A DNA stretch of 49,095 nt, taken from IMG/VR virus record IMGVR_UViG_3300017783_003139, positions 1-49,095 of that record; one strand, written 5' to 3'. A program made the position numbers and the translations under genes. The stretch is from a virus. Below are positions 18,132 to 49,095 of the stretch, piece by piece (within the stretch, counting starts at the first letter, position 1; every line of letters starts with the position of its first letter). The notes beneath the pieces were generated by a model that was not told the origin of the DNA, made no database searches, and was given only the letters and a program-made list of their open reading frames with translations.

Positions 18132-18139
18132 TATTTATT
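18132..18139 (-). promoter_or_regulatory. T4-type late promoter (AATAAATA)
   Basis: One mismatch from TATAAATA, 18 bases before the ATG at 18113. The TAA stop of the giant gene (18135-18137) is bases 3-5 of the octamer. Confidence 0.65.
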
Positions 18140-36000: not shown

Positions 36001-36622
36001 AACCATTTACTGGTTTATTAAATGTATAAACTGGAACATCTGAGTTAGTAGCATTAAGTCTATACTGTTCAGTAGTTAGTCCATTAATTTTACTATTCTT
36101 GGACGGTCTACCAATTGTATTATTTCTAGGAAGTGCAGCATTAAGAACACGTTTAAACTGTTCTGCCCAATTACTGTTGCTTGGGTCATTCCAAATGATT
36201 GTTTGGTCTGATAAATTAAATCCGTTACTATCATTAATGTTTTCAGTTGTGCTTACTGTTTCAAATTTAAGTAATCCGTTTGCGGGTTGATTACGCTTTG
36301 CGTTGTATGATAACATACGAGCCAAACGAAGAACTGATTCTCTACGTTCAGCTAATTCTAAAAAGTTTTCTCTGGAGTTTAGATCAACTCTATAACTAAT
36401 ATTTTGACCTAAGAACGCAATCATATCAATGAGAGCAAGATATTCTGATGTATCTACATAGTCGTTAAAATCTTCAGGATAGTTAGTACGAAGATAATTA
36501 ATCATCGCCCTTCGTAAGGTATCAAAATCATAACTACGGAACTCTGCATTCCTGTAGCTTTGATATACCTTTTTCCAGTCTTCTGCTAAAAGCAGTCTAT
36601 TTTGTCTATCTGTTGACGACAT
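33074..36622 (-). CDS. gp6: Baseplate wedge protein gp6 (BPP J-like), extended
   Basis: 1182 residues, nearly twice T4 gp6 (660). The N-terminus has 'WKKVYQSYRNAEFRSYDFDT', 'YLALIDMIAFLGQNISYRVD' and 'RESVLRLARMLSYNAKRNQP', the conserved start of wedge gp6. 'RMVTGEDYNIVPL' in the middle and 'VRVVNSINRFFSLQNWDFGD' near the end match the J-like core that links to gp25 in contractile baseplates. gp6 dimers form the continuous ring of the baseplate. The last ~35 residues are almost only Ser and Gly (a run of about 16 Ser, then GSS repeats, GGGY), encoded by a 9-bp tandem repeat. A late octamer lies 25 bases before the start. The next gene's RBS is in its last codons. Confidence 0.9.
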   Translation of the reverse strand: MSSTDRQNRLLLAEDWKKVYQSYRNAEFRSYDFDTLRRAMINYLRTNYPEDFNDYVDTSEYLALIDMIAFLGQNISYRVDLNSRENFLELAERRESVLRLARMLSYNAKRNQPANGLLKFETVSTTENINDSNGFNLSDQTIIWNDPSNSNWAEQFKRVLNAALPRNNTIGRPSKNSKINGLTTEQYRLNATNSDVPVYTFNKPVNGLPTQFEIVSTDIDVTAKVIREENPIPGNNLAFLYREDGRGNASNNTGYFVHFRQGKLNSSDFNVPSPTANQRLTIETENINQNDVWLYGTNDSGQEDTLWSQVDSAEGNNAIYNSIVKGVRNYYVVQTRQNDEISLVFADGTFGNIPSGAFRAYYRTSANRSMKINPEELTNITISIDYLSKAGTTETMTIGVELKEQVTNATTSESTASIRTNAPQTYYTQNRMVTGEDYNIVPLTTNQEIVKVKSVNRTTSGISRYFDLKDVTGKYSSTNLYGSDGVLYNEQYTDKRAFTFDTQTDIEGTIENTILPIIQNRATNNFYFANYAKIIVSDLNATWTQSSKSTNISTGLLKNNNDLPYETGTFTGGSLKYLEANALLKFKPPAGFYFNDKGGLTSNALEKGASTYKWVKVISVAGAGTAVDSVTGAGPIVFNEIVPANSILEEVKPKLVKDISADVRTQIIDQVFAYKTFGLRYDQATRTWRVIINENLNIYDTFSNGKTGDVTQNQLDASWLILFETNGEKYTVTNRGLRYVFESDKELSFYFDGQNKIYDSVTGQLVKDKISILNFNTKPDSLVAFNNDVNWEIVNTFQNADGYVNSKKVEVSFYDLNDDGSVDDPDVFDVVVDPLTSPNTKYIFLKKENSDQGFTKYNYYAEGDTIRVVTTEAEIGAYSQYEEGTIFYITKDTNFKTLIGNLLVLTTEYQAYVGRDNLKFHYVHSADEANRIDVSASNIIDVYMLTRSYDVEFRKFIAGTIATKPLPLSSDALFQNYGSSINSYKSISDEIIYHPVKYKALFGKNAQENLQATFKIVKNTGEVINNNEIKVRVVNSINRFFSLQNWDFGDTFHFSELVAFVVNETAPDIANLIIVPNQASQGFGSLFEIKSENDEIFINDATVDDVEIIDAITASRIQATGNVVTATNTASTGIQSQALTTTANTTSTSSTVVSSSSSSSSSSSSSSSSGSSGSSGSSGGGY
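33116..33160 (-). repeat. 9-bp tandem repeat coding for poly-Ser in gp6
   Basis: On the plus strand TGAACTGCT occurs four times in exact tandem (33116-33151) and a fifth time with one change (33152-33160). It encodes Ser-Ser-Ser on the minus strand. Neighbouring related units give the GSS repeats. Such repeats change length by replication slippage in steps of three codons, without frameshift. Confidence 0.85.
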
Positions 36623-36647
36623 CGGCTATCCTTCTTAACTATGCTAG

Positions 36648-36655
36648 TATTTATG
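36648..36655 (-). promoter_or_regulatory. T4-type late promoter (CATAAATA)
   Basis: One mismatch from TATAAATA, followed by C, in the 62-base gap between gp25 and gp6, 25 bases before the gp6 ATG. It would let gp6 and the giant protein be transcribed apart from the hub genes. Confidence 0.7.
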
Positions 36656-36684
36656 ATATTTAATAATAGCAGTACTTAATTGTG

Positions 36685-37116
36685 TCACGATAACCCATTG
36701 GCTTTATCGAAGTTCAATTTAACGTTTTCGCTAATATTATATTGTAAATACTTTAGTGTACATTCAATTTGTATGCCAGATTCGTATTCACTAACTTGTA
36801 CACCGGTTGCTGATGTCCTTGGATCGTAATTTACAATTCCAGTAACATTTTGTGCTATTGCTTCTTTAAGTTCAGTAGTTAAAGGTTCAAATAGTGCTTC
36901 CCATATAATACACCCAAATTCAGGATTTGATAATTTTTCTCCTTGACGTATATTAAAATGATTAATTAAGTCTTGCTTAATTAATGCTAAGTCATATTGC
37001 TGAAATGAAGTAGTGTCAGGATTGACTGTGCTAAACCCTCTGTAGGATTTTTGTGCCACAGGAGGTTTAGGAGCTTTTTCACCTTTAATTTTAATTTCTT
37101 TGTATAAATCTGCCAT
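36685..37116 (-). CDS. gp25: Baseplate wedge protein gp25
   Basis: 143 residues, near T4 gp25 (132). 'YDLALIKQDLINHFNIRQGE', 'NPEFGCIIWEALFEPL' and 'EYESGIQIECTLKYLQYNIS' are the gp25/lysozyme-like (GPW) fold signature, with the Glu-Pro-Leu segment that contacts the sheath-proximal wedge. N-terminal ~25 residues are basic (KIKGEKAPKPPVAQKSYRGF), an extension over T4. gp25 joins gp6 and gp53 in the wedge core. AGGG nine bases upstream serves as RBS. Confidence 0.92.
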   Translation of the reverse strand: MADLYKEIKIKGEKAPKPPVAQKSYRGFSTVNPDTTSFQQYDLALIKQDLINHFNIRQGEKLSNPEFGCIIWEALFEPLTTELKEAIAQNVTGIVNYDPRTSATGVQVSEYESGIQIECTLKYLQYNISENVKLNFDKANGLS

Positions 37117-37133
37117 ACTGTATTTACCCTATT

Positions 37134-37430
37134 CTATCCACCAGCAAAAACTTTATTAAATCCTGTTGCTACGCTTGTACACCCTGTAATAGCATCTCCT
37201 ATACGACCGCATCCTTTGCCGTTTACAAATACTTTTGTACTTCCTGTAGTAATCGGTGCCGCGTGACTTGGGCAAGGTGCTGGTGGTAATTCATGTGAAG
37301 TGTTATTATCGCCTTGACGAGATACTCCTGTACCATCAACAAATACATCTCCGCTACACTGATCTCTTTTTGGCGTAGAACAGTGTGCTACATCAGAATC
37401 TACACTATTACCTCTACATACTGCGGGCAC
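37134..37430 (-). CDS. PAAR-repeat spike tip protein
   Basis: 98 residues from GTG at 37430. The TTG at 37436 is one base from the GGAG RBS, while GTG is seven bases away and gives 'MPAVCRGNSVDSD', matching the usual 'MPA' start of PAAR proteins. Three short blocks 'DVFVDGTGVSRQGD', 'KVFVNGKGCGRIGD' and 'TGFNKVFAGG' are the PAAR repeats that fold as a cone. His and Cys residues (AHCS, CPSHAAP) would bind the metal at the point. It caps the gp5-type trimer, one copy per phage, like T4 gp5.4. It overlaps the small upstream gene by 17 bases. Confidence 0.9.
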   Translation of the reverse strand: MPAVCRGNSVDSDVAHCSTPKRDQCSGDVFVDGTGVSRQGDNNTSHELPPAPCPSHAAPITTGSTKVFVNGKGCGRIGDAITGCTSVATGFNKVFAGG

Positions 37431-37620
37431 GTTCAATCTCCATTAGTTGTTGTAATTTTCCATTCCATTGTTCTATTTCTTCGTGTTGTTCTTCAGTGTG
37501 TGGCTCTGGTGGTATCTCAGGTAAAAATTCTATTACATGATCAAAGTCGTTAGGTATTTGATCAAAGTCAGTGTAAGTTATTAACTCGTTATTCTTTTTT
37601 ACAGTAAATCTATGAGGCAT
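37414..37620 (-). CDS. Small conserved protein between spike and PAAR tip
   Basis: 68 residues from ATG at 37620 (an in-frame earlier start lies in the end of gp5). 'MPHRFTVKKNNELITYTDFD' then an acidic, Pro-rich middle 'EFLPEIPPEPHTEEQHEEIE' and a helical end 'QWNGKLQQLMEIERARSM'. I recall close relatives at this place in marine T4-like phages, function not known. Location between the spike and its tip suggests a spike assembly factor or a minor hub component; inference only. Overlaps the genes on both sides (11 and 17 bases). Confidence 0.7.
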   Translation of the reverse strand: MPHRFTVKKNNELITYTDFDQIPNDFDHVIEFLPEIPPEPHTEEQHEEIEQWNGKLQQLMEIERARSM

Positions 37621-40303
37621 TGTTTTCACTCGCATTTCCTGCTTCCAATTTAGTTTCAATAATTGAAACTGTACCTGTTCCTGGATAAGCAGTTGTAGTT
37701 AATGATGCTAACGGAATCATTTCTCCGTTAATAATTTTTTGATAAAATCCTTTACCAATACCAATACGTCTAGCAGTTTCATTTCCGCCTGGATCAGAAT
37801 ATCCAACTGCTTTGGCAAATGCAGATCCTAAAGAAGCAAAACTTTGATCTGTCCAATTTATACCTTTAGATTTAATATACGCTACTGCTAGTTTTGTAGC
37901 AACTGTTGGGTCGTTTGCCATTTCAGGATTATCAACAATATTAACTCCTGCTAGTCCGCCGTATTTTTCGTAGTTGGCTTTAAATGTTAATTGAATAAGT
38001 CCTCTTCCACGATATTTGTAACCTTCATTTTGAGCATTACCATATCTGTTACCGTATAGTGTATTACCAATTGCCGCTGGGCCTGCCGCTACAAGTTCTT
38101 GAGCAAACGCATTTGATTTGACTCTACTAGGATAAACTACTCTTAATCTTGAAGCACTATAGTTCATACTTTCGCTACGAGGTTTAAATCCACATTCTGC
38201 TTGAGGTTGTGCCATTGCCATTGCTACCGCTACAGGATTGAGTGATACCCAAGTTGCTGGATCTAGTCCTACACCTTTTATCAATTCGCTTAAGAAATAT
38301 CTCTGCATATCATTAACTGGTACAGGGTGTGCTGGTTGAGCTCCGTCTACTGGTCCTGCTGTACCTGGAGTAACTACTTGTGCTCCATCTGTGTCAGCAA
38401 CAACAGGTCCTGATTCTGCTGTGTAAAATGGTTGATCAGTTTCGCTATTAATAACTGCTTGTTGAGCTCTTACTGCCGCTGGCGGCGATTCAATAGCTTG
38501 TGTGTTTGCCGGTGTGTGTGCACTTGGATTAAGGTGTTCGTGTTCTGGCCACGGTTCACGTATTGGTACTCTTCTTGGATATAACGCAAACGGTGCTTCT
38601 TTTGCTCTTAAAGCATCCTGTGTTACTTCTAACGGAACTCCGGCACTGTCAAGAATTACTTCACCAATTTGATCACGTACTCTATCTTCTTGGTCTTGTG
38701 TTACAGGAGAAGTAAATGTATCTGTAATATTATCAGCACTAACACTTGCTGTAGCTTCTATAGTACTATTCATATGTATTTCATTACCTGCTGTTTCAGA
38801 ATGGTTAACTCCTGATAGTATTTCAGTACTAACTGTAGCATCTAATTTATTATTTAAAGTACTTTTAATTTGTGTAGTGGCTCCACTAGTAAATTTGTTG
38901 TCTCCGGAAGTATTTAGGTTATATGCTCCTGATACAACTTGTCTATAGTTGCCTGCTACTTTACTGCCAAACTCTCCGTTAATTGCTATTCTTCCGTTTG
39001 AAGCAACTTGTAAATTATAATTTCCGGATACTGTTTTAGCATCATTACCTTTTACTTGTATATCTTGATTACCACCAATAGCAACTGTGTTATTATTACC
39101 TATCCATAAGTCATTTGTGTTGCCGATAAATTCTTGTTTGTTTACACCTACTCGTATATCTACATTTTCTGCTGTAGTGTTTTTCGTATTTCTACCAGCG
39201 TTTATGTTTATATCTCTTCCAGCACTCCAGTTAAAATCTCTGTCAGCATGTAGGTTAATATCATTTCCGCTTCTTACGCTAATACTATCGTCACTGTAAA
39301 CATCAATCTTACCATTTGAAGTAAGTTCAATCCAAGCACTGCCACGAGCGTTACCGATGTAAATTAGATCTTCAGTATTATGCATTAATATTTGATGACC
39401 TGTTCTAGTACGTAATCTTACATGTTCGTTAAACGGAAGTGTTGGATTTGTCTTACTTACTTGATCAGGTAATTTACCAATATCATAATATGTCGGAGAA
39501 GTATCAAATGCTAATCCCGAACGTAAAATAGAAGGGTCTCCATCATCCATTGTAAATGCTGAGCCACCAAGTCTGCTTCTAAAATAATCAATAGCTTCTT
39601 TTCTTGCTCCATACTTTCCTTTAGGAGCTCCGTCACGTTTATCTAACGGTCCTGGTGTATTCCAACCAAACACCATACTAGGTAATTCTCGTCTAGCACT
39701 CGAACTAGTAAGTCCTCTAGTAGTATCATCTAACAATCCTTGCGAAGCAAGAGTTTGTACCATTAAAGGATTATGTGGACGTAAAAAAGTATCAGGATTA
39801 TTGCCTCTATTATTATTAAAGGCTTTATTATATTCGCCTGTCGGTAATGGTTTCTCTTTAAATTCTTCGGCTAAATTATCTTGTATAACGTATGAACTTT
39901 TTGCGGCTGCATATCCACCCGGAACCATATGATTCATGTATTCATCTTGAATACATCCAATCCAATATCCCATATTAGATTTACCTTCAGCAAATATTAC
40001 TAATACCTTTGACCCAGGGTCTGGTGGTACTGCCCAAAAACCGTAGCTCTGTTGAGTGTCTCTGTAGTTATTGTTTGATGTATTACTGTTTACATCTGTT
40101 ACACCATAAAAAGGACTACAATAATTTACTGTAAAGACTTGACCGTCTTCATCTTTGTCATTCGATGTTGAACTATTTTTTATTAATTGGACTTTAAGAG
40201 CACCTGATCTTCTAGGATCAAGGTGACTTATAACTCTAGCAACAAATGGTCCTGTTGGTAAATTTCTATTTGGTGCGCCTGCGGTTCTTTTTTCTTGACT
40301 CAC
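37610..40303 (-). CDS. gp5: gp5-type baseplate spike with C-terminal GH19 lytic domain
   Basis: 897 residues from GTG at 40303 (GGAGG nine bases upstream; GTGA overlap). Residues ~15-120 are the OB-fold (PFVARVISHLDPRRSGALKV, YGFWAVPPDPGSKVLVIFAE). After a linker, residues ~300-500 form a spike of short repeats (INLHADRDFNWSAGRDININ, IGGNQDIQVKGN, VSGNYNLQVASNGRIAINGE), the triple-stranded beta helix of VgrG/gp5. From ~655 is a GH19 chitinase-like domain: Glu703 in 'PQAECGF' at the catalytic place, 'ESMNYSASRLRVVYPS' and 'GYKYRGRGLIQLT' (~757). T4 gp5 has a lysozyme inserted between OB and helix; here a GH19 domain follows the helix. Role: trimeric needle that pierces the envelope and cuts peptidoglycan. 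Confidence 0.9.
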   Translation of the reverse strand: MSQEKRTAGAPNRNLPTGPFVARVISHLDPRRSGALKVQLIKNSSTSNDKDEDGQVFTVNYCSPFYGVTDVNSNTSNNNYRDTQQSYGFWAVPPDPGSKVLVIFAEGKSNMGYWIGCIQDEYMNHMVPGGYAAAKSSYVIQDNLAEEFKEKPLPTGEYNKAFNNNRGNNPDTFLRPHNPLMVQTLASQGLLDDTTRGLTSSSARRELPSMVFGWNTPGPLDKRDGAPKGKYGARKEAIDYFRSRLGGSAFTMDDGDPSILRSGLAFDTSPTYYDIGKLPDQVSKTNPTLPFNEHVRLRTRTGHQILMHNTEDLIYIGNARGSAWIELTSNGKIDVYSDDSISVRSGNDINLHADRDFNWSAGRDININAGRNTKNTTAENVDIRVGVNKQEFIGNTNDLWIGNNNTVAIGGNQDIQVKGNDAKTVSGNYNLQVASNGRIAINGEFGSKVAGNYRQVVSGAYNLNTSGDNKFTSGATTQIKSTLNNKLDATVSTEILSGVNHSETAGNEIHMNSTIEATASVSADNITDTFTSPVTQDQEDRVRDQIGEVILDSAGVPLEVTQDALRAKEAPFALYPRRVPIREPWPEHEHLNPSAHTPANTQAIESPPAAVRAQQAVINSETDQPFYTAESGPVVADTDGAQVVTPGTAGPVDGAQPAHPVPVNDMQRYFLSELIKGVGLDPATWVSLNPVAVAMAMAQPQAECGFKPRSESMNYSASRLRVVYPSRVKSNAFAQELVAAGPAAIGNTLYGNRYGNAQNEGYKYRGRGLIQLTFKANYEKYGGLAGVNIVDNPEMANDPTVATKLAVAYIKSKGINWTDQSFASLGSAFAKAVGYSDPGGNETARRIGIGKGFYQKIINGEMIPLASLTTTAYPGTGTVSIIETKLEAGNASENNAS

Positions 40304-43236
40304 GTAAGATTACCTCCGCTATTGTTTTTACGAATGTTTCTAGATCCATAAACATAATACGGATCGTTACCTGATATTCCTTTACCACCTGATCGTTTTG
40401 GTTGAGCAACTGGGGGATATCCATCATCAGCTGTTGCAGTTTGAGCTTCTTTCTTCTCAGGAGCTTTTTTAACCGGTGGTACTTCGTTTCCTGTTCCGGC
40501 ATTACCAAACTCGCCTTCTTGTCTAACTTTTAATTTATTAGCTCTTTCTGTTGCTAATCGTGTTCTTTCTTCTGAAGTAATTCCGCCTGCTAATGCTTCA
40601 TTTTCTTGAAGTTTGCCATCAGCATCTAGATCTAATTCAGCAAATCTAATTAGATCCGGATCACCTGTTGCTTTTGCTTCAGCAATAAGTTTGTTACGTT
40701 TCTTTTCTATTGCTAATTTTCGTTCTGCTTCGGCTTCTTGGAATTCAGCTAGACTCTGATTCTTTCTTTTATTAGCTATTAATTCTTGTGTAAACACATT
40801 TCCGGAAAACTTATTATTAACACTAACAACTCTATAAAGTCCGTCAAAGTCTTGTACACCTACAACTTCGTTATTCATAAGGTAATTACCTTGATCCGGA
40901 TTAAGATCAATTGGTGTTTTAAATTTAATATTAACATCAACTTCGCCGTTACTTGCATTCACTGACCCGTCAATATTTACATTAAACTGATCTGTATAAT
41001 CAGCTGAATAGTTGCCTACACCGCTATCTGCTAGATAATACGGATCTCCTAATATTTCCATGTTAATTGTAATTAAACTACCTGAAGCATCAATAATTGC
41101 TTGGTTAAACTGTCTTGCTACACTAATAGCTGTTGTTTCAGCAACTGCTCCTGAAGATAGTGCATCTAAATCAATGTTTTCTATCTTAGCTTCAGAACCG
41201 TCGCCACCGCTTCTTTGTTGACCTGAACCTGAAATTTCAGCCACTGGTTCTTTTGTATCTTTTACACTTCCTTGAGACGATGGATCGTTACCATCGTTTC
41301 CCATACTAGCAATTTGTATTGATTCATAAAATGAATTATTAAACTCTAAATTAAAATTTAGTATATCTTTGTTTTTACCTGTATACAGATATTCGTATGA
41401 TCTTCCAGGTTGTATTTTATCATACCCTTTTGGTGGACTGTTGGGCATTTGAAAATGACTATTATGTACCTTATAAGGAATAACTTTGTATACATACAAA
41501 TAAGGTTTTCTTCCGTAAACTTTTTCTGATGCTTTATCATCAACAATAAAAACTTGTGTTTCAATTTTAAACCAATTGACCATTCCGTCTTCTGCCACTT
41601 CAGCATCTTTAAAAATATTTTTACCGTAGTCACTAATAAGAACTAATTCTTCAATACATCTTTGTATCTTAGTTCCTGCTCTAAATGTTATTGTTCTTTC
41701 ATTTGGATTAATTCGGATTCCGTTTTTTTCTAGTAATTTATTTTGAGGATTATAAGCATAATTGCTTAATCCAAACGGAACGTTACCAGATGACAGATCT
41801 TCATTTGGTTTTATTTTTGCCTTGCCAATTTTATTACAGTCTCCACCTGGTGTCGCAAGGACACTTTTTATACTTTCACTTAGATCACCTCTTTTAACAC
41901 TAAACCCTAATTTACTTTCAACAAACACTCTGCGTTGTTTTTTGTAGGATTGGGCGTAATCGTGATTGTCTTTTACAAAACTTCCTTTGATATCATCAAA
42001 GTGTTCTTCAATATCTTCATCGGTGAATGATTTTTTAGACAATTCACCTGAGGTAGCTGTTTTATCTCCAGATATTCCTGTTATAGCTTCTTGTAAACTA
42101 TTACTACTATTATCACTAGGAAAACAAATTATATATTCGTCAACTTCTACAAGATCATATTGTTTATTTTTTATATACAAAAGTTGAGTATTAATATGAG
42201 TTGCCAAACTGTTAATACCTGTTTGTAATGCGTCTTGTAAATTTTCTCCACTTATAGTAAAGTCTTGTTTTAATCCTTGAGCAGTATCTTCAAGTGCTTG
42301 TTCATTGTGGGCTACGCATCCAAATTTATATATACTGCCAGCATCATCTATTTCAAATTCGGCGCTGACAATTTTTACCGGAAATTGTCTTCTAAGTTTT
42401 GAATCTCTTAGAAGTACACCTTCAGTATTGTATCCGGTAAAAGTACATTCAAGCAACCAAGGAGCTTTTAGATAATTATCATATCCTGCTTCATTAGCAA
42501 TAACTTGTAGTGTTTGAAAGAGTTGCCCCATACTATAAGGTTCTCTGACTTCAAAAGATATGTTAACAGCATTAGTATGTCTAGTTTTACTTGTTGGAGC
42601 CATTACAGCACCAATTTCAATATCGTCAATAAAATAACCTGTTGCTATATTAAATTTTTCTTCTGCGGCTGTTCTTACTTTTCGTTCATTTGATCTACCG
42701 CTAGAATCAATTGCTGTTAGTCTCGGGCTTGGACCAAATCTTCTGTATGTTTTGTCTGGTCTGTTAATTTCATCTGGTGTAAGGCAGGCAAGTTTCCAAA
42801 TATGATTTACAGTAGCATAGTTATATAAAACATTTTTTGTACTATTTTCAAAATTAAGAGAAGCAATAGCCGACTGAGTAGCTTCATAATTACTAAGGGC
42901 TTGTTTTTTATTTTCTATAGCTTGAAGTTTAGCGGCATCGCCTACTGTAGATGTTCCAGTCTTTTTTACAAGATCATTTTCAGCCAAAACATTTATATTC
43001 GATGCGTTAGCACCAAATGGATTTTTACCAGCTCTAGCATCATCAATCATAGTTGATGCTCCTGGGAATCCAAAGGCTGCCATAATTTTTTTGCTTTGTT
43101 CTACATTTTCCTCTGTAACTTCACCTTGGTATTGGCCTTTTTTATCTAAGTCTGCTTGACTGATATATTTCGCGCCAATAATTTTTCCTGTTTTAGGATC
43201 AGTTTTATAAGGAGGTTTAGGTAGTGTATAAGGCAA
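40300..43236 (-). CDS. Large baseplate hub protein (gp27-like position)
   Basis: 978 residues from TTG at 43236, with AGGAG eight bases upstream; no ATG is found for ~50 codons. It lies between gp53 and the gp5 spike, where a gp27-type hub is expected. 'EKFNIATGYFIDDIEIGAVM', 'NISFEVREPYSMGQLFQTLQ', 'WLLECTFTGYN' and 'QFPVKIVSAEFEIDDAGSIY' form a conserved core. Near residue 800 'GLYRVVSVNNKFSGNVFTQE' resembles the last hub strand of gp27/GpD proteins. C-terminal ~150 residues are charged and Lys/Glu-rich (EAEAERKLAIEKKRNKLIAE) with an EF-hand-like 'LDLDADGKLQENEA', possibly calcium-binding. The hub call rests on order and one motif. T4 gp27 is about 390 residues, so this is a much expanded form. 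Confidence 0.65.
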   Translation of the reverse strand: MPYTLPKPPYKTDPKTGKIIGAKYISQADLDKKGQYQGEVTEENVEQSKKIMAAFGFPGASTMIDDARAGKNPFGANASNINVLAENDLVKKTGTSTVGDAAKLQAIENKKQALSNYEATQSAIASLNFENSTKNVLYNYATVNHIWKLACLTPDEINRPDKTYRRFGPSPRLTAIDSSGRSNERKVRTAAEEKFNIATGYFIDDIEIGAVMAPTSKTRHTNAVNISFEVREPYSMGQLFQTLQVIANEAGYDNYLKAPWLLECTFTGYNTEGVLLRDSKLRRQFPVKIVSAEFEIDDAGSIYKFGCVAHNEQALEDTAQGLKQDFTISGENLQDALQTGINSLATHINTQLLYIKNKQYDLVEVDEYIICFPSDNSSNSLQEAITGISGDKTATSGELSKKSFTDEDIEEHFDDIKGSFVKDNHDYAQSYKKQRRVFVESKLGFSVKRGDLSESIKSVLATPGGDCNKIGKAKIKPNEDLSSGNVPFGLSNYAYNPQNKLLEKNGIRINPNERTITFRAGTKIQRCIEELVLISDYGKNIFKDAEVAEDGMVNWFKIETQVFIVDDKASEKVYGRKPYLYVYKVIPYKVHNSHFQMPNSPPKGYDKIQPGRSYEYLYTGKNKDILNFNLEFNNSFYESIQIASMGNDGNDPSSQGSVKDTKEPVAEISGSGQQRSGGDGSEAKIENIDLDALSSGAVAETTAISVARQFNQAIIDASGSLITINMEILGDPYYLADSGVGNYSADYTDQFNVNIDGSVNASNGEVDVNIKFKTPIDLNPDQGNYLMNNEVVGVQDFDGLYRVVSVNNKFSGNVFTQELIANKRKNQSLAEFQEAEAERKLAIEKKRNKLIAEAKATGDPDLIRFAELDLDADGKLQENEALAGGITSEERTRLATERANKLKVRQEGEFGNAGTGNEVPPVKKAPEKKEAQTATADDGYPPVAQPKRSGGKGISGNDPYYVYGSRNIRKNNSGGNLT

Positions 43237-43239
43237 TGC

Positions 43240-43530
43240 TTATTCTCCTAAAGTTTCTAACACACGGGCTCTGTCTGGTAAGTAAATTTGTAGTCCTGCT
43301 TCAATATCATATATCGGGTCTTCAATTATATCTAAGTTCCTTTGAGCAAATATCCACCACAAACTATGATCGCCGTACATGTCATACGCAAGTAAATCTG
43401 GCCTATGTGTATACTGTGGTTCAATAGTATATAGCGGATCATCAGTGTAAGCAGGCACTGGTCTGATGTTTAAAACTCCCAAAGTCCCATCTGAACTAAG
43501 TTTTGTATCTCTATACGGACTATTAGCCAT
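43240..43530 (-). CDS. gp53: Baseplate wedge protein gp53
   Basis: 96 residues, about half of T4 gp53 (196). 'YDMYGDHSLWWIFAQRNLD' and 'YDIEAGLQIYLPDRARVLET' carry the LysM-like motif of gp53, the clamp that joins neighbouring wedges. 'RPDLLAYDMYG' is typical of marine T4-like versions. One-base TAATG overlap with gp48 upstream. Confidence 0.88.
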   Translation of the reverse strand: MANSPYRDTKLSSDGTLGVLNIRPVPAYTDDPLYTIEPQYTHRPDLLAYDMYGDHSLWWIFAQRNLDIIEDPIYDIEAGLQIYLPDRARVLETLGE

Positions 43531-44429
43531 TATAAATATCCTTTACCTAAATTAAATCCGGAGATAAAATCTCTATAGTTAAATTTTGATGTAGTATCTC
43601 TGCTGTATATTGGTTGAGCTACTACGTTAATTTGAGATTCTGATGGTGCCCATCCTATATTTTCAGCACTACTTCTGGTAGCAAAATTTGTAGCAATGTA
43701 GTCAACATCTCTTGGCATATCAACTGAAAATGTTGTAATTACTACTGGAACATTATTAAAAACATAATCTCCGTAGCCGTTAAGTTTTACAATTGGTGGA
43801 GGATTACCTGTAGCAAATCGGCCATAATCCATTTTAGTAATTGACCTTAAGTAATGTACACATGCTACCCAATATTGGGCTTCTAAAGAATTTTGTACAT
43901 ACATTTGACCTGTGATGTTTATAGCTTCCACACTTGAGTTCTGATACGCAAAGAACGGATAATTACTATGCACAGGGGCAGTAGCATTATAATTGGCATT
44001 ATGCTGAATAATAATTGAAGGTGTATATGGAAAAACCATTCTATTTCCAGTACTTTGAAGCGGTGACATTACAGGAGACATTTTGAAAGCAAGAGGATTG
44101 TTAGGTAAACTTAAAGAAACTCTCCAATCTTTTTCTTCAACCTGTGTAGAAGCAAAAACTGCTGGTTCTACTTCAATGCCGCCTCCGGCGCCATCGGCTC
44201 CTGGAAGATTTTGTGACCTAAAAGCACTAGCAAATTTTCCTACTGCGCCACTAACACCACTGAATATACTTTGTCCAATGTCTTTAACATTATCTGGTAT
44301 ATCATCTGTTGAAAATGGGAAAGTACCAGCATTTACGTTTTGGCCTGAACCTTTCTTTGGTACGTTAAATCCAGGGTTTCCTGATAACTGTATGCCTGGT
44401 ACGCCTGGGTCTCTGTCTTTAAAGTCCAT
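43530..44429 (-). CDS. gp48: Baseplate tail-tube initiator gp48/gp54-like
   Basis: 299 residues. 'DWRVSLSLPNNPLAFKMSPV', 'GNRMVFPYTPSIIIQHNANY', 'ITGQMYVQNSLEAQYWVACV' and 'GDYVFNNVPVVITTFSVDMP' are characteristic of the tube-like fold of gp48/gp54 that sits on the hub and starts polymerisation of the tube. The first ~90 residues are Gly/Ala-rich and probably flexible. First gene of the minus-strand baseplate operon, with a late-type octamer 26 bases upstream and AAGGAAA as RBS. gp48 against gp54 cannot be decided by eye, as the two are homologous. Confidence 0.85.
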   Translation of the reverse strand: MDFKDRDPGVPGIQLSGNPGFNVPKKGSGQNVNAGTFPFSTDDIPDNVKDIGQSIFSGVSGAVGKFASAFRSQNLPGADGAGGGIEVEPAVFASTQVEEKDWRVSLSLPNNPLAFKMSPVMSPLQSTGNRMVFPYTPSIIIQHNANYNATAPVHSNYPFFAYQNSSVEAINITGQMYVQNSLEAQYWVACVHYLRSITKMDYGRFATGNPPPIVKLNGYGDYVFNNVPVVITTFSVDMPRDVDYIATNFATRSSAENIGWAPSESQINVVAQPIYSRDTTSKFNYRDFISGFNLGKGYL

Positions 44430-44455
44430 AATTTTAATTTCCTTATATTATGCAT

Positions 44456-44463
44456 TATTTAGT
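44456..44463 (-). promoter_or_regulatory. Candidate T4-type late promoter of the baseplate operon (ACTAAATA)
   Basis: TAAATA core with two mismatches at the first two bases, 26 bases before the gp48 ATG. It shares base 44463 with the -35 box of the divergent gp55 promoter. Confidence 0.55.
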
Positions 44464-44491
44464 TGACTTTATTAACTACTGAGTTTATAAT
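44463..44491 (+). promoter_or_regulatory. Sigma70-type promoter of gp55
   Basis: TTGACT (44463-44468), 17-base spacer, TATAAT (44486-44491); one mismatch in the -35 and none in the -10. The gp55 RBS (GGAG at 44505-44508) and ATG at 44514 follow at normal distance. A 5-bp inverted repeat (TAGTT / AACTA, 44460-44464 and 44474-44478) straddles the -35. Confidence 0.85.
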
Positions 44492-44513
44492 ATGAGTATA
44501 ACCTGGAGAAAAA

Positions 44514-45356
44514 ATGAAAAAAGTAAATTATTTAAACAACAAAGATATCTTAAAAGAGATACACAAGTCAAAAAGCACTTTTTGTAGTTATACCGACGAT
44601 AGCTATAGCCAATACGACATAATTTTACCTTCTATAGATAAAATCAACGTTAGAACTGTTGCTGAAGCAAAGCGTAACAAGGCTAAACGATTACAACAAC
44701 AAAATTTTGAAGCCGCTAAATTAGCTGGTAAAAAAGTAAAATTAGCCGAATTTGAAATTGATTATAGAAAAATTACAAAAGAAGAACTAATATTTAGAAT
44801 TATGTCATTTGATCATATTCCTGAAGAACCTGGGCGTAAAAAGAACCCTAAGACTGTAGCAGATACAAGAGTAAAGTTAAATTTTCCACCTTTTCAACAT
44901 TTTAAATTTGATGACGATGGAAAAGAACTAGATTGTGTAGGTAAAAGTCATTGGGAAGGTGGCATGGAGAACGGATACTTTAATAAAACAGGTGGTAAAG
45001 CAACTAACAAACTTGCTATGATGTGGATGAAGTTATGTGATAGATACGCAACAAGAGGCAATGTACGTGGATACACTTACAATGACGAAATGCGTGGACA
45101 AGCAATTCTACAATTAGCACAAATTGGCTTACAGTTTGATGAATCAAAATCAAACAATCCGTTTGCTTATTATACTGCGGCGGTTACAAATTCATTTGTA
45201 CGTGTTATTAACATCGAAAAACGCAATCAAAACATTAGAGACGATATTCTTGAAATGAACGATATGAATCCTAGTTTTACTAGACAAAATCAAGGTCAGT
45301 GGGAGCGTCAAATGGAAGAACACCAAAAAAAGCTGGCAAACGAGAAAAAGACTTGA
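44514..45356 (+). CDS. gp55: Late transcription sigma factor gp55
   Basis: 280 residues, longer than T4 gp55 (185). From about residue 160, 'KLAMMWMKLCDRYATRGNVR', 'YTYNDEMRGQAILQLAQIGL' and 'NPFAYYTAAVTNSFVRVINI' form the sigma region 2-like core that binds the RNA polymerase clamp and melts the late promoter. The N-terminal ~120 residues are an added basic stretch (EAKRNKAKRLQQQNFEAAKL). The protein directs host polymerase to TATAAATA-type promoters, several of which are in this window. Strong sigma70 promoter in front, so the gene should be expressed before late genes. Its TGA stop lies inside the -35 box of the next promoter. Confidence 0.92.
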   Translation: MKKVNYLNNKDILKEIHKSKSTFCSYTDDSYSQYDIILPSIDKINVRTVAEAKRNKAKRLQQQNFEAAKLAGKKVKLAEFEIDYRKITKEELIFRIMSFDHIPEEPGRKKNPKTVADTRVKLNFPPFQHFKFDDDGKELDCVGKSHWEGGMENGYFNKTGGKATNKLAMMWMKLCDRYATRGNVRGYTYNDEMRGQAILQLAQIGLQFDESKSNNPFAYYTAAVTNSFVRVINIEKRNQNIRDDILEMNDMNPSFTRQNQGQWERQMEEHQKKLANEKKT

Positions 45357-45381
45357 CTTTAGTCTTAAAATAAGTTATAAT
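45353..45381 (+). promoter_or_regulatory. Sigma70-type promoter of gp47-gp46
   Basis: TTGACT (45353-45358), 17-base spacer, TATAAT (45376-45381), the same design as the gp55 promoter, with nine identical bases from the -35 (TTGACTTTA). The TGA of gp55 is bases 2-4 of the -35 box. Confidence 0.85.
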
Positions 45382-45397
45382 ATAAAGGTTAAGACTA
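45360..45397. repeat. 9-bp perfect inverted repeat around the gp47 -10 box
   Basis: Arms TAGTCTTAA (45360-45368) and TTAAGACTA (45389-45397), separated by 20 bases that contain the TATAAT box. The right arm falls at the expected start of transcription, so the repeat cannot fold in RNA made from this promoter; an operator for a dimeric repressor is a reasonable reading. In read-through RNA from gp55 it could fold as a weak hairpin. Confidence 0.7.
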
Positions 45398-45410
45398 TAA
45401 AGGATATATT

Positions 45411-46421
45411 TTGTTTAAAAAAGCGGCTGTGTTTACGGACATACATTTAGGATTAAAATCAAATAGTCGACAACATCTTCAAGACTGTGAAGACTTTGTT
45501 GATTGGTACATTGAACAAGCAAAAGCTAACGGTTGTGAAACTGGCATTTTTTGTGGAGACTGGCATCATAATAGAAATACAATTAACGTACAAACACTTG
45601 ATAGCACTACTAGGTGCCTTGAAAAGTTAGGTGCGGCATTTGAAAATTTTTATTTCTTTGCTGGCAATCACGATTTATACTATAAAGATAAACGTGATGT
45701 TTTTTCAGTAGAGTTTGCCAAACATATTCCCGGTATTACTTATATTGAAGAAACTACTGTAAAAGACGATGTAGCATTGGTGCCTTGGTTAGTAGGCGAC
45801 GAATGGAAAAACATTCAAAAGATTAAAGCAAAATATATGTTTGGACATTTTGAACTTCCTAATTTTTATATGAACGCACTTGTAAAGATGCCTGACCACG
45901 GTGATTTAAAACCAGAACATTTTGAACATCAAGAGTATGTGTTTAGCGGACACTTCCACAAACGGCAAGTACAAGGAAAAATACAATATCTAGGTAATGC
46001 TTTTCCTCACAACTATGCTGATGCGTGGGATGATGATCGCGGAATGATGATTCTTGATAAAGAAAATAATGAAGAACCTAAATATTTAAATTGGCCTGAC
46101 TGTCCTAAGTATCGAACAACTACTCTTAGTAAACTTCTTGATCCGGACTCAGATATTATTAAACCTAATATGTATTTGCGTGTTACACTAGACTTGCCAA
46201 TTAGTTACGAAGAAGCACAATTTATTAAAGAAACATATATTACTCAACACGGTTGTAGAGAGATTACACTAATTCCTAGTCAACAAGACGAAGAGATACA
46301 CACTGATATTGATATTAGTACTTTTGAAAGTGTTGATCAAATTGTTACTAAAGAAATTTCAGCAATTGATACTGAAAATTATAATAAAAGTGTTCTATTA
46401 GGGATATATGACGAACTATGA
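45411..46421 (+). CDS. gp47: Recombination nuclease subunit gp47 (Mre11/SbcD-like)
   Basis: 336 residues from TTG at 45411, with AAAGGA six bases upstream; no ATG precedes the first motif. The five metallophosphoesterase motifs are present in order: 'FTDIHLG', 'GDWHHNRN', 'FFAGNHDLYY', 'FGHFEL' and 'FSGHFHKRQ', which bind the two metal ions. Family knowledge: with gp46 it resects double-strand ends to load recombination proteins for phage replication and repair. The stop and the gp46 start overlap as ATGA, ensuring paired synthesis. Confidence 0.93.
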   Translation: MFKKAAVFTDIHLGLKSNSRQHLQDCEDFVDWYIEQAKANGCETGIFCGDWHHNRNTINVQTLDSTTRCLEKLGAAFENFYFFAGNHDLYYKDKRDVFSVEFAKHIPGITYIEETTVKDDVALVPWLVGDEWKNIQKIKAKYMFGHFELPNFYMNALVKMPDHGDLKPEHFEHQEYVFSGHFHKRQVQGKIQYLGNAFPHNYADAWDDDRGMMILDKENNEEPKYLNWPDCPKYRTTTLSKLLDPDSDIIKPNMYLRVTLDLPISYEEAQFIKETYITQHGCREITLIPSQQDEEIHTDIDISTFESVDQIVTKEISAIDTENYNKSVLLGIYDEL

Positions 46422-48193
46422 TAAAAATTAAAAACTTAACGGTTAAGAACTTTATGAGTGTGGGCAATCAGACTCAAGCAGTTGACTTTGATACACAACA
46501 GATTACGCTTGTGCTAGGAGAAAATCTTGACCAAGGTGGTGACGATAGCGGTTCACGTAACGGTACAGGTAAAACTACAATTATTAATGCGTTGTCTTAC
46601 GCATTGTACGGACTTGCGTTAACAAATATCAAACGTAATAATCTAATTAATAAAACTAATAGCAAAGGTATGTTAGTTACACTGTCTTTTGAGAAAGACG
46701 GCAGAGAATATAAAATTGAAAGAGGTCGTTCACCTAATATTTTAAAGTTTTATGTAGACGGGCAAGAACAAGAAATGTTAGACGAGTCGCAAGGCGATTC
46801 ACGCAAAACACAAGAAGATATTCAAGACTTACTTGGTATGAGTCATAATATGTTTAAGCATATCTTAGCACTCAATACATACACTGAACCGTTTTTAAGT
46901 ATGCGTGTTAACGATCAAAAAGATATTATTGAACAGTTGCTCGGCATTACAATACTAAGTGAAAAAGCAGAAACACTTAAAGAACAAATTAGAAAAACTA
47001 AAGAAAATATTACTGAAGAAAATGCTAAACTTACAGCACAACAATCTAGTAACGAACATATTGGCAGTACTATCCGCAGTTTAGAATTAAAAGAAAGTGC
47101 TTGGAAAGAAAAACAATCACAAGACATAGAAAAACTACGCAAAGGAATAGACGAATTAGAGCATTTAGATATTGATTCTGAGTTAGATTCGCATGAAAAA
47201 CTATCTAACTGGACTGAACATAATAATGCTATTATGGCTCTTAAGAAAGAACTTAGTACATTAGAACCAGCACTAGTACGTGCTGATAAGAGTGTTAATA
47301 AAGTTAATAAAGACATCGCAGAATTAGAAGATGCTGTGTGTTATACATGTGGACAAGAACTTCACGCAGACAAAAAAGCAGAAATTGCCGAACGTAAATC
47401 TAAAGAGCTTACTGATGCTAAATCATATCAAGAAGAAATTAACGGTAAAGTAAAAGACGTTATGGCTTCTTTAGATTCTATTGGTGATATAAATGGAAAG
47501 CCTACTACATTTTATGAAACTGCTAAAGAAGCATATGACCATAGAAGCAATGTTGAGAATTTACAAAAAGCATTAATTAGTAAACAAGAAGAAAACGATC
47601 CTTATGCTGAACAAATAAAAGATTTAAAAGAAACCGCTATACAAGAAATTGACTGGGCTACAATTAATACATATACTGACTTAAAAGACCATCAGGAGTT
47701 TTTATTAAAACTGTTAACAAACAAAGATAGTTTTATACGTAAAAAAATTATTGATCAAAACTTAGCATATCTTAATAACAGACTTACAACGTACCTTGAT
47801 AAACTAGGACTACCGCATCAGGTTGTATTTAAGAATGATCTAGCAGTTGAAATTACACAATTAGGACAAGATTTAGACTTTGATAATTTAAGTAGAGGCG
47901 AGCGTAATAGACTTATACTTGGTATGAGCTTTGCGTTTAGAGATGTTTGGGAAAGTTTATATCAAAATATTAACTTGTTGTTTATTGACGAACTTATTGA
48001 TAATGGATTAGATACTGCTGGCGTTGAAAACGCACTAACAGTTCTTAAGAAAATGGGTCGAGAACGTCAAAAAAACGTATACTTAATATCGCACAAAGAC
48101 GAACTGGTAGGAAGAGTAACACATGTTCTTAAAGTAATAAAAGAAAACGGGTTTACTTCATACGAAAACGATGTAGAGATACACAATGAGTGA
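46418..48193 (+). CDS. gp46: Recombination nuclease ATPase gp46 (Rad50/SbcC-like)
   Basis: 591 residues, similar to T4 gp46 (560). Walker A 'GSRNGTGKTTIINAL' near residues 45-60, long coiled coil from about 170, zinc hook 'CYTCGQ' near 307, second coiled coil, ABC signature 'LSRGERNRL', Walker B 'NLLFIDELID' and 'LISHKDE' H-loop. ATP-driven partner of gp47, SMC-like dimer joined through the hook. The gene overlaps its partner by 4 bases and the next small gene by 8. Confidence 0.93.
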   Translation: MIKIKNLTVKNFMSVGNQTQAVDFDTQQITLVLGENLDQGGDDSGSRNGTGKTTIINALSYALYGLALTNIKRNNLINKTNSKGMLVTLSFEKDGREYKIERGRSPNILKFYVDGQEQEMLDESQGDSRKTQEDIQDLLGMSHNMFKHILALNTYTEPFLSMRVNDQKDIIEQLLGITILSEKAETLKEQIRKTKENITEENAKLTAQQSSNEHIGSTIRSLELKESAWKEKQSQDIEKLRKGIDELEHLDIDSELDSHEKLSNWTEHNNAIMALKKELSTLEPALVRADKSVNKVNKDIAELEDAVCYTCGQELHADKKAEIAERKSKELTDAKSYQEEINGKVKDVMASLDSIGDINGKPTTFYETAKEAYDHRSNVENLQKALISKQEENDPYAEQIKDLKETAIQEIDWATINTYTDLKDHQEFLLKLLTNKDSFIRKKIIDQNLAYLNNRLTTYLDKLGLPHQVVFKNDLAVEITQLGQDLDFDNLSRGERNRLILGMSFAFRDVWESLYQNINLLFIDELIDNGLDTAGVENALTVLKKMGRERQKNVYLISHKDELVGRVTHVLKVIKENGFTSYENDVEIHNE

Positions 48194-48395
48194 TGATACG
48201 CACGATCTTTTAACTAAAGCATATATGGCTTACTTTAAAGCAAATGAAAAGTTTGAAGCTCGTAATTCTGTAAGAACGCACCGTGAAAGCAGAAAATGGT
48301 TACGTGAAATACGTAGATTAGCAAAAGATCGGGCAGAAGAAATACACACAATACACAATACAACAAGAACAACCAGGACCGGTGGTCCAAAATAA
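48186..48395 (+). CDS. Small basic helical protein after gp46
   Basis: 69 residues. Nearly all predicted helix: 'LTKAYMAYFKANEKFEARN' then 'RESRKWLREIRRLAKDRAEE', followed by a Thr/Arg-rich tail. I recall similar small proteins after gp46 in marine T4-like phages, with no known role. Overlap with gp46 (8 bases) implies coupled translation; the positive second helix would suit nucleic-acid binding, but that is inference. Confidence 0.75.
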   Translation: MSDDTHDLLTKAYMAYFKANEKFEARNSVRTHRESRKWLREIRRLAKDRAEEIHTIHNTTRTTRTGGPK

Positions 48396-48416
48396 CAGGC
48401 ACACATATATAAGTTC

Positions 48417-48866
48417 ATGCAGTGGACTTATCAAGACAAAATAATAGACGAAATACCAGATGAGTATGAAGGCTTTGTTTATCTTATTACTAATACCACT
48501 ACAGGCCAAAAATATATAGGTAAAAAACTAGCAAAATTTAAGACTACTAAGCCACCACTTAAAGGCAAAAAGAATAAAAGACGAGGCACTAAAGAAAGCG
48601 ATTGGAAAGATTACTGGGGATCTAGTGATAGACTAAACGCAGATGTTGCCAAACTAGGCGAAGACAAGTTTACAAGAGAAATACTATACCTATGTAAAGG
48701 TAGGGGCGAAATGTCCTACATAGAGGCACGAGAACAGTTTGACAGGCGAGTACTTGAAACTGATGATTACTATAATGGTATCATTAATGTTAGAGTAGGC
48801 GGATCAGACAAACTCAAACAGGCATTGCTAGAACAAAACATCAAGGCAAAACAATCTAACACATAA
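48417..48866 (+). CDS. GIY-YIG-type endonuclease-like protein
   Basis: 149 residues. 'GFVYLITNTTTGQKYIGKK' is a GIY-YIG motif with a Val-Tyr-Leu form of the first element and an intact Tyr-Ile-Gly. 'DWKDYWGSSDRL' and, later, 'GEMSYIEAREQFDRRVLETD' with a conserved Glu complete the expected core. Such small stand-alone proteins occur in phages and prophages as putative endonucleases, some of them mobile. The start has no clear RBS. It is followed directly by the non-coding GC-rich segment. Confidence 0.75.
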   Translation: MQWTYQDKIIDEIPDEYEGFVYLITNTTTGQKYIGKKLAKFKTTKPPLKGKKNKRRGTKESDWKDYWGSSDRLNADVAKLGEDKFTREILYLCKGRGEMSYIEAREQFDRRVLETDDYYNGIINVRVGGSDKLKQALLEQNIKAKQSNT

Positions 48867-49095
48867 GGTTAGCGGGCCAGTTTACAAATACCGCTGAGGA
48901 AAAGGTCCTGTGATAAGGACACTCGTACACGTTGAGCCGCGTCCGGTAGTAGGGCGGCAGGATTGATGTAGGTTGACTGTTAGCAATCGAAAAACACAAC
49001 ACAGTTCATAAAAACTCTTTAGCAATAGGAACGAAGCGAGAGGTAGCGTAAGCGATGTCGACGTAGGTTGGGAAAGGTCAGAGCCCATTGAACTA
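48867..49095 (+). other. GC-rich non-coding segment, candidate structured RNA (cut by window edge)
   Basis: No credible gene on either strand. By hand count about 110 of 229 bases are G or C (48%), clearly above the coding sequence around it. Consecutive stems: TTAGCGG/CCGCTGA (48869-48875 with 48891-48897, one G-U), GTCCT/AGGAC (48905-48909 with 48916-48920, loop GTGATA), GCCGC/GCGGC (48936-48940 with 48954-48958), and GACTGT/ACAGTT (48975-48980 with 49001-49006, one G-U). None is followed by a U run, so these are not intrinsic terminators. Direct repeats TAGCAAT (48981, 49020) also occur. The strand given is arbitrary. I match it to no RNA family I know; it may continue past the edge. Confidence 0.5.

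Follow-up and report, generated by a model that had tools for sequence, protein, structure and literature searches.

In phage T4, late promoters carry an octamer at -13..-6 (PMC1524935), and the available part of a second source describes them as having no upstream or -35 element, while noting a small T4 protein, DsbA, whose binding sites overlap two late promoters (PMC2988020). Octamers with a/gC at -13/-12 belong to the Aeh1 type, CTAAATA being the late box of Aeh1 in the portion of that work at hand (PMC1524935). In the accessible text on the Pectobacterium phage CBB, neither a gp33 nor a gp45 homologue is reported (PMC5259590). A different kind of early/late control is described for phi29, where site 3 of the regulator p4 overlaps the -35 of the early promoter A2b, and p4 bound there activates the late promoter A3 while A2b is repressed (PMC3100819, as far as the accessible text goes).

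The stretch considered here (the window) is a virus record of 49,095 bases of the T4-like jumbo-phage kind, from a group of large, mostly uncultured phages. Its structural genes lie on the minus strand up to 44429, followed by gp55, gp47 and gp46 on the plus strand. CBB and the Klebsiella phage RaK2 are annotated with this divergent arrangement as well (gp5, structural protein, gp53, structural protein / gp55, gp47, gp46), as are, with small differences, MIJ3 and Atu_ph07; in the one cyanophage examined, gp55 lies elsewhere and is flanked by same-strand genes.

Anatomy of the gap upstream of gp55

The gp55 protein is well identified. It matches phrog_12791 (E 5.8e-77) and, by sequence, the T4 gp55 chain 7d7c_F (E 6.1e-5), and the latter is also the top-ranked PDB fold match (E 0.024, probability 1.00, 89 columns) of its AlphaFold2 model (mean pLDDT 86.7). 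The remaining listed fold matches with a probability above 0.2 are sigma-factor chains, save for 9a50_A (0.41), to which no identity was assigned. A part of about 130 residues (residues ~30-160, 44601-44993) falls outside the T4 gp55 sequence match; it is modelled with high confidence, and the fold search of the AlphaFold2 model returned no clear PDB match for it. The gene on the other side of the gap had been called gp48 in the sequence-only reading, a name given by position only which the searches do not bear out, as its 299-aa product matches phrog_12050, annotated as 'virion structural protein', and no Pfam family at E 0.1. This gene heads a run that continues with a gp53-like protein, a virion structural protein and a gp5-type hub/lysozyme. 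Also on the minus strand, among structural genes, a single open frame of 4978 codons occupies 18135-33071. The sliding-clamp family PF02916 was detected in 0 of 14 records and was equally silent in all control genomes, so its silence carries no information.

The 84-bp gap between the divergent genes holds a near-consensus sigma70 promoter of gp55 (TTGACT-17-TATAAT) along with a T4-type late octamer:

37610-40303, minus strand: gp5-type baseplate hub/lysozyme, in the baseplate run (profile match)
40300-43236, minus strand: virion structural protein, in the baseplate run (profile match)
43240..43530, minus strand: gp53-like baseplate wedge subunit, second in the run (profile match)
43530..44429, minus strand: virion structural protein, 299 aa (phrog_12050)
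44438..44444, minus strand: AAGGAAA, purine-rich ribosome-binding stretch of the first gene of the baseplate run (by eye)
44456..44463, minus strand: T4-type late octamer ACTAAATA of the baseplate genes, predicted to occupy -13..-6 (read directly)
44463..44468, plus strand: -35 TTGACT of the gp55 promoter, base 44463 common with the octamer (read directly)
44474..44485, no strand assigned: dyad AACTACTGAGTT, differing from AASTRCGYASTT at two positions; it lies 10 bp upstream of the octamer and takes up the 12 distal bp of the sigma70 spacer
44486..44491, plus strand: -10 TATAAT of the gp55 promoter, adjoining the dyad (read directly)
44505..44508, plus strand: GGAG, ribosome-binding site of gp55 (by eye)
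44514..45356, plus strand: gp55, T4-type late sigma factor, 280 aa (phrog_12791 and T4 gp55 matches)

With a spacer of 17 bp (44469-44485), the gp55 promoter agrees with the sigma70 consensus (-35 TTGACA, 16-18 bp, -10 TATAAT) at 11 of 12 positions, one of two such matches in 36000-49095, and is followed by the gp55 ATG at 44514 on the plus strand. The octamer is separated by 26 nt from the 299-aa gene's ATG (44429). The window combines a TATAAATA-like box (ACTAAATA) before late genes with an encoded gp55. The sequence-only reading had proposed that the late baseplate promoter abuts the sigma70 promoter of gp55 and that the -35 box and the octamer share base 44463; direct reading finds exactly this, i.e., an overlap of 1 bp. 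Given the T4 octamer position of -13..-6, the late start is predicted at ~44450, close to the 44448 put forward earlier, and the gp55 start is predicted by sequence at ~44498, placing the two starts ~48 bp from each other in divergent orientation.

Upstream of called genes (60 nt, five records), none of the other AT-only hexamers, 64 in all, shows a sense excess as large as that of TAAATA (64 sense versus 19 antisense). Exact TATAAATA was discarded as a finder of late promoters: it occurs three times in the window as against a mean of 10.8 in 100 shuffles, every one of which has at least three, and late promoters were therefore found by position, not by spelling alone. Its rarity in the window may perhaps reflect selection against stray late starts. 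The composite arrangement (a sigma70 match of at least 11/12 with its -35 within -2..+5 bp of an opposite-strand TATTTANN) is present once in the window and once in the record of each of four relatives, and 100 Markov-1 simulations of the window contained three such sites. An inverted repeat, GTTGA..TTAAC, seen by eye across the -35 and the linker was dropped, its arms showing no covariation.

Register and constraint among relatives

A first set joined the window to 77 of 80 loci, for 78 sequences in all, leaving out one truncated locus (L011) and two with too short a flank (L019, L008). Over 60 bases these comprise 63 distinct sequences, 53 of which display TATTTAGTTGAC (1-bp overlap) and eight TATTTATTGAC (2-bp overlap, with the octamer AATAAATA), the other two having no octamer at that place. 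In a larger set of 120 distinct gaps, with a gp55 at least 75% identical to that of the window or of L071, the overlap is 1 bp in 109 and 2 bp in eight, and the promoters are split in three. Conservation of the gap in relatives, suggested earlier as a check, is accordingly seen in 117 of the 120 close-relative gaps as an overlap of 1 or 2 bp, a count whose members are related by common descent and hence not independent. The flanks, in turn, vary: the octamer stands a mean of 20 nt from the start with a standard deviation of 4.4 nt (n=75), and the distance from the -10 to the gp55 ATG has a standard deviation of 5.7 nt (n=63). Across the 1953 pairs of the 63 sequences, the pairwise difference is 20.9% in the 36-bp composite versus 55.5% at gp55 4-fold sites and 62.4% in the left flank, with values of 0% for TTGAC, 2.7% for TTATAAT and 15.8% for TATTTA.

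A control is provided by the promoter of the adjacent gp47, located 0.83 kb downstream in the same phages and of similar strength:

45353..45381, plus strand: gp47 sigma70 promoter TTGACT-17-TATAAT, 11/12, without octamer or dyad (sequence)

This promoter scores at least 10/12 at that place in 97 distinct sequences of the group. One could suppose that TATTTAG is an UP-like upstream part of the early promoter and that there is no late promoter at all, and indeed TATTTA directly precedes the -35 in 106 of 108 gp55 promoters. However, it does so in 0 of 97 gp47 promoters (distinct cases in both counts), and the spacer information is 21.2 bits for gp55 versus 5.5 bits for gp47. Further, 14 of 18 records contain TATTTAGTTGAC a single time and none contains it twice, the other four being of the 2-bp-overlap or split types; in those 14 it lies only at gp55 and is absent from their other exact TTGACW-16/17-TATAAT sites. 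Moreover, where relatives have the two promoters split, the octamer remains on the late-gene side and is missing from the early promoter. Judged by these comparisons, TATTTA is not a generic early-promoter feature, and the UP-like interpretation is largely refuted, retaining in our estimate hardly any probability. The comparative evidence says instead that both promoters are real and their register conserved, and the overlap is no accident of one genome.

TATTTAGTTGAC is also seen in L231 and L249. Elsewhere, sigma70-like sites with CTAAATA in the spacer on the same strand were observed at G007:49122-49150 and G008:49021-49049, a possible tandem early/late overlap, and the distant Atu_ph07 (L083, 5880-6010) has TATTTAGTTGACAAATTAACTAC, by eye with no -10 at the right distance.

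A dyad upstream of the late octamer

The conserved gp55 spacer, TTAACwgmGTA, contains a second element, the often degenerate 12-bp dyad AASTRCGYASTT. This had been overlooked in the sequence-only reading; it is part of the late promoter and is common to a second baseplate promoter. Mismatches to the dyad number 0/1/2/3/4/5 in 12/16/26/33/19/11 of the 117 merged gaps, i.e., 54 have at most two, 52 have three or four, and 11 have five, as compared with random 12-mers of the window, in which at most four are found in 1.6% and at most two in 0.06%. The octamer-distal half AWNTAC, which adjoins the -10, is kept in 102 of the 117 and broken in the window.

A dyad matrix built from the gap alone was run over octamers outside the gap, with octamer-overlapping offsets excluded. 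Over 807 octamers it peaked exactly 10 bp upstream with 15 matches, against a mean of 0.32 and a maximum of 3 at the other non-overlapping offsets and a maximum of 8 for 200 column-permuted matrices; over 535 further octamers from 76 new loci, 27 matches fell at 10 bp (other offsets: mean 0.21, maximum 2). A spike at offset -15 in the first scan was an artefact of the matrix window overlapping the octamer itself, and the first permuted-matrix control (95% point 29, maximum 90), which suffered from the same overlap, was replaced by the 200-permutation one. Palindromes of the AASTRCGYASTT form with at most one mismatch are enriched close to other TAAATA sites, with 15 cases near them and 27 away from them, while for ten control palindromes between 0 and 5 lie near. 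By eye, nearly all of the spike outside the gap comes from orthologues of a single promoter, which precedes a baseplate wedge gene (33074-36622 in the window; phrog_10646, E 2.7e-290):

36648..36677, minus strand: second late promoter, of the wedge gene, with octamer CATAAATA (36648-36655), 10 bp, and the degenerate dyad AAGTACTGCTAT (36666-36677, five mismatches)

Both window dyads are therefore imperfect, the gap dyad having two mismatches and the wedge dyad five. In the first set, the window included, nine of 12 distinct wedge promoters have a dyad with at most two mismatches, the misses being the window (5), L165 (5) and L177 (6). In a second set, a few contigs of which (e.g., L203, L226) are also in the first, 28 of 31 distinct promoters have it at 10 bp with at most four mismatches; adding those at 9 bp in L249 (four mismatches) and L252 (two) gives 30 of 31 at 9-10 bp, and L260, like the window, has five mismatches. 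Since the linker sequences vary freely, it is the spacing that is kept at this promoter. Among 11 wedge promoters of phages at 61-69% gp55 identity, six have the dyad at 9-10 bp with at most two mismatches, two have three or four, and three have five, whereas 14 more distant ones have no octamer within reach. Most octamers other than those of the gap and the wedge gene have no dyad. Gap and wedge dyads do not covary significantly within genomes (8.33 versus 8.17 of 12 when shuffled, p 0.18, 39 pairs).

Searching for WACGYASTT-N(9-12)-NNTAAATA in 22 records yielded 26 sites in 15 records, as against one for the reversed pattern. Among these sites, in addition to those of the gap and the wedge promoter, a possible third late promoter was noted at G001:93355 and G002:65439, before a gene that is scaffold-like by eye and has no PHROGs match, with a dyad half 12 bp from a TAAATA box; the half at G002:65439 is also 5 bp from another such box. 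Further candidates by spacing alone are G032:77338, G034:32740 and G037:83706, inspection of the gene itself having covered G001 and G002.

The three split gaps (L071, L188, L189) reveal to which promoter the dyad belongs. In them the dyad keeps its 10-bp distance to the octamer (mismatches 0, 0 and 2), and the gp55 promoter is found 53-55 bp away with an unrelated spacer and without an octamer. Because the dyad stays with the octamer, it belongs to the late promoter (-35..-24), with the gp55 promoter lying over it; at the level of sequence, its going with the late rather than the sigma70 promoter can be regarded as shown. The idea that the conserved spacer serves the host sigma70 polymerase only draws on the dyad filling the sigma70 spacer in merged gaps, yet similar dyads at the wedge promoter and in the split gaps lie outside the gp55 spacer, and gp47 spacers are little conserved. 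Unless these dyads are unrelated, that idea is largely refuted and seems to us very improbable.

In clade B (MIJ3-like environmental contigs), 34 bp separate the octamer from the -35 in 25 of 42 distinct measured gaps; many gaps of this clade (L087-L132, L264-L288) have ATAAAC-N6-TTTTAT or something similar at a fixed place between the promoters. In three groups of gaps the strongest centre of dyad symmetry lies 15 bp past the octamer: the 42 of clade B, the 12 of the 60-69% group and the 10 left over; in these last 10, a centre at 43 bp does nearly as well. Merged clade-A gaps peak at 24 bp, over their AT-rich -10 region, with 16 bp in second place, and by the same measure 14 bp is best for the three split gaps. 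Ten RaK2-like gaps have no symmetry peak of this kind; among 14 distinct RaK2-like gaps, the octamer is 1-3 bp from the best -35 in six and is otherwise placed, or none was placed, in the rest. The existence of relatives with promoters 34-55 bp apart and of RaK2-like phages without the dyad implies that the overlap is not essential. When 120 gp55 proteins were placed on a quick tree, those with merged promoters clustered; clade A contained one split group, and another small merged group fell outside that clade. The four state changes counted include L263, labelled merged by artefact.

A proposed early/late node and its described counterparts

The comparisons establish the anatomy and conservation of the interlocked promoters as features of the sequence. 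We favor, at a probability of about 0.55, a divergent early/late node in which the late and gp55 promoters exclude each other, gp55 falls, and a dimeric dyad binder acts in the manner of phi29 p4. The late promoter of the baseplate run comprises the octamer (-13..-6), a 10-bp linker and the dyad (-35..-24), and the gp55 sigma70 promoter is threaded through it from the other strand, with its -35 in the linker overlapping the octamer, the dyad as most of its spacer and its -10 abutting the dyad. Early on, host sigma70 polymerase would use the gp55 promoter and cover the late one; later, gp55-polymerase and the putative dyad binder would occupy the late promoter, and the -35, spacer and -10 of gp55 would be hidden under the late footprint and a dyad-bound dimer, such that late baseplate transcription and further gp55 synthesis exclude each other. 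With only ~48 bp between the predicted divergent starts, there would hardly be space for two polymerases at once, and mutual exclusion is likely on steric grounds; we infer that, as the sequence-only reading proposed, rising gp55 might thereby shut off its own gene. A phi29-p4-like factor that binds the dyad, helping the late promoter and blocking that of gp55, is the leading mechanism by analogy, albeit an unproven one. Early promoters may also be silenced by other means, and in some relatives the two promoters stand 34-55 bp apart.

Two alternatives carry more weight than those dealt with above. Two promoters in a short gap might overlap by plain compaction without regulatory consequence, each motif being needed and there being no room for indels. 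The gap is only 84 bp, the leaders are short (octamer to start, mean 20 nt) and the overlap itself shifts between 1 and 2 bp; indeed, with no switch involved, the register could be kept simply because the required elements are rigidly packed. However, such phages can make room: the same promoters stand 53-55 bp apart in three close relatives and, in clade B, 34 bp apart in 25 of the 42 gaps that were measured, and the overlap is nevertheless retained in 117 of 120 close relatives; we therefore consider compaction unlikely, while giving it serious thought. An equally doubtful alternative takes the dyad to be the operator of a repressor of both promoters, for instance one delaying the baseplate genes and capping gp55, rather than an activator site. 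A tightly bound dyad at -35..-24 and inside the sigma70 spacer would block both promoters, and T4 DsbA, which the available part of its description shows binding AT-rich sites that overlap two late promoters (PMC2988020), is possibly kin in kind. The fixed 10-bp distance, though, suits contact with polymerase, without deciding the matter.

Beyond the preferred node of mutually exclusive promoters, we tentatively advance a broader proposal, with the odds leaning against it: a dedicated phage DNA-binding factor might read the dyad at -35..-24 of a few morphogenesis late promoters (baseplate run, wedge, perhaps scaffold) as a second layer of control atop gp55, one that T4-type phages are not known to have, and, by sitting in the gp55 promoter core, close a feedback loop tying late-sigma synthesis to baseplate production. 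As to its identity, DsbA is the nearest hint by analogy. The gp55 protein itself was considered as the reader of the dyad and is not named as such, because RaK2-like gp55 shares the extra part at residues ~30-160 while RaK2-like gaps have no dyad.

If the node operates as proposed, DNA geometry would let a T4-type phage set the timing of its late sigma factor and couple that factor to structural-gene output, and an upstream element would be added to a promoter class held to have none; the naturally split and merged gaps offer a ready comparison. No description of the interlocked early/late arrangement was found in the literature searched, and the described systems resemble it in part. The locus is like T4 late promoters in its 8-bp TAAATA-type box upstream of structural genes, with a gp55 homologue next door in the window. 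It differs in that two, perhaps three, late promoters of the window's group have a dyad at or near -35..-24 (PMC2988020, in its available part), and the gap and wedge promoters consequently depart from the T4-type rule of no conserved upstream/-35 element. The resemblance to Aeh1 lies in the octamer spelling ACTAAATA at the gap and in CTAAATA late promoters, whereas the accessible text describes neither an upstream dyad nor an overlap (PMC1524935). CBB has the same gene order around gp55, late ATAAATA boxes and a named promoter before gp55 with an octamer close by; unlike in the window, that promoter has a TGAAACG-type -35, the CBB gap has no dyad, and the overlap is not remarked upon in the portion available (PMC5259590). 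The placement of the candidate regulator site, with the dyad upstream of the late promoter and within the early promoter core, is by sequence alone of the phi29 type. As with A2b and A3, in the available part of that account, the early and late genes are on opposite strands and a regulator site between the promoters overlaps the early -35 and serves the late one (PMC3100819). Unlike in phi29, the late promoter of the window is T4-type, the early gene encodes the late sigma factor, the interlocking of the promoters reaches down to single bases, and the binder of the dyad is putative.
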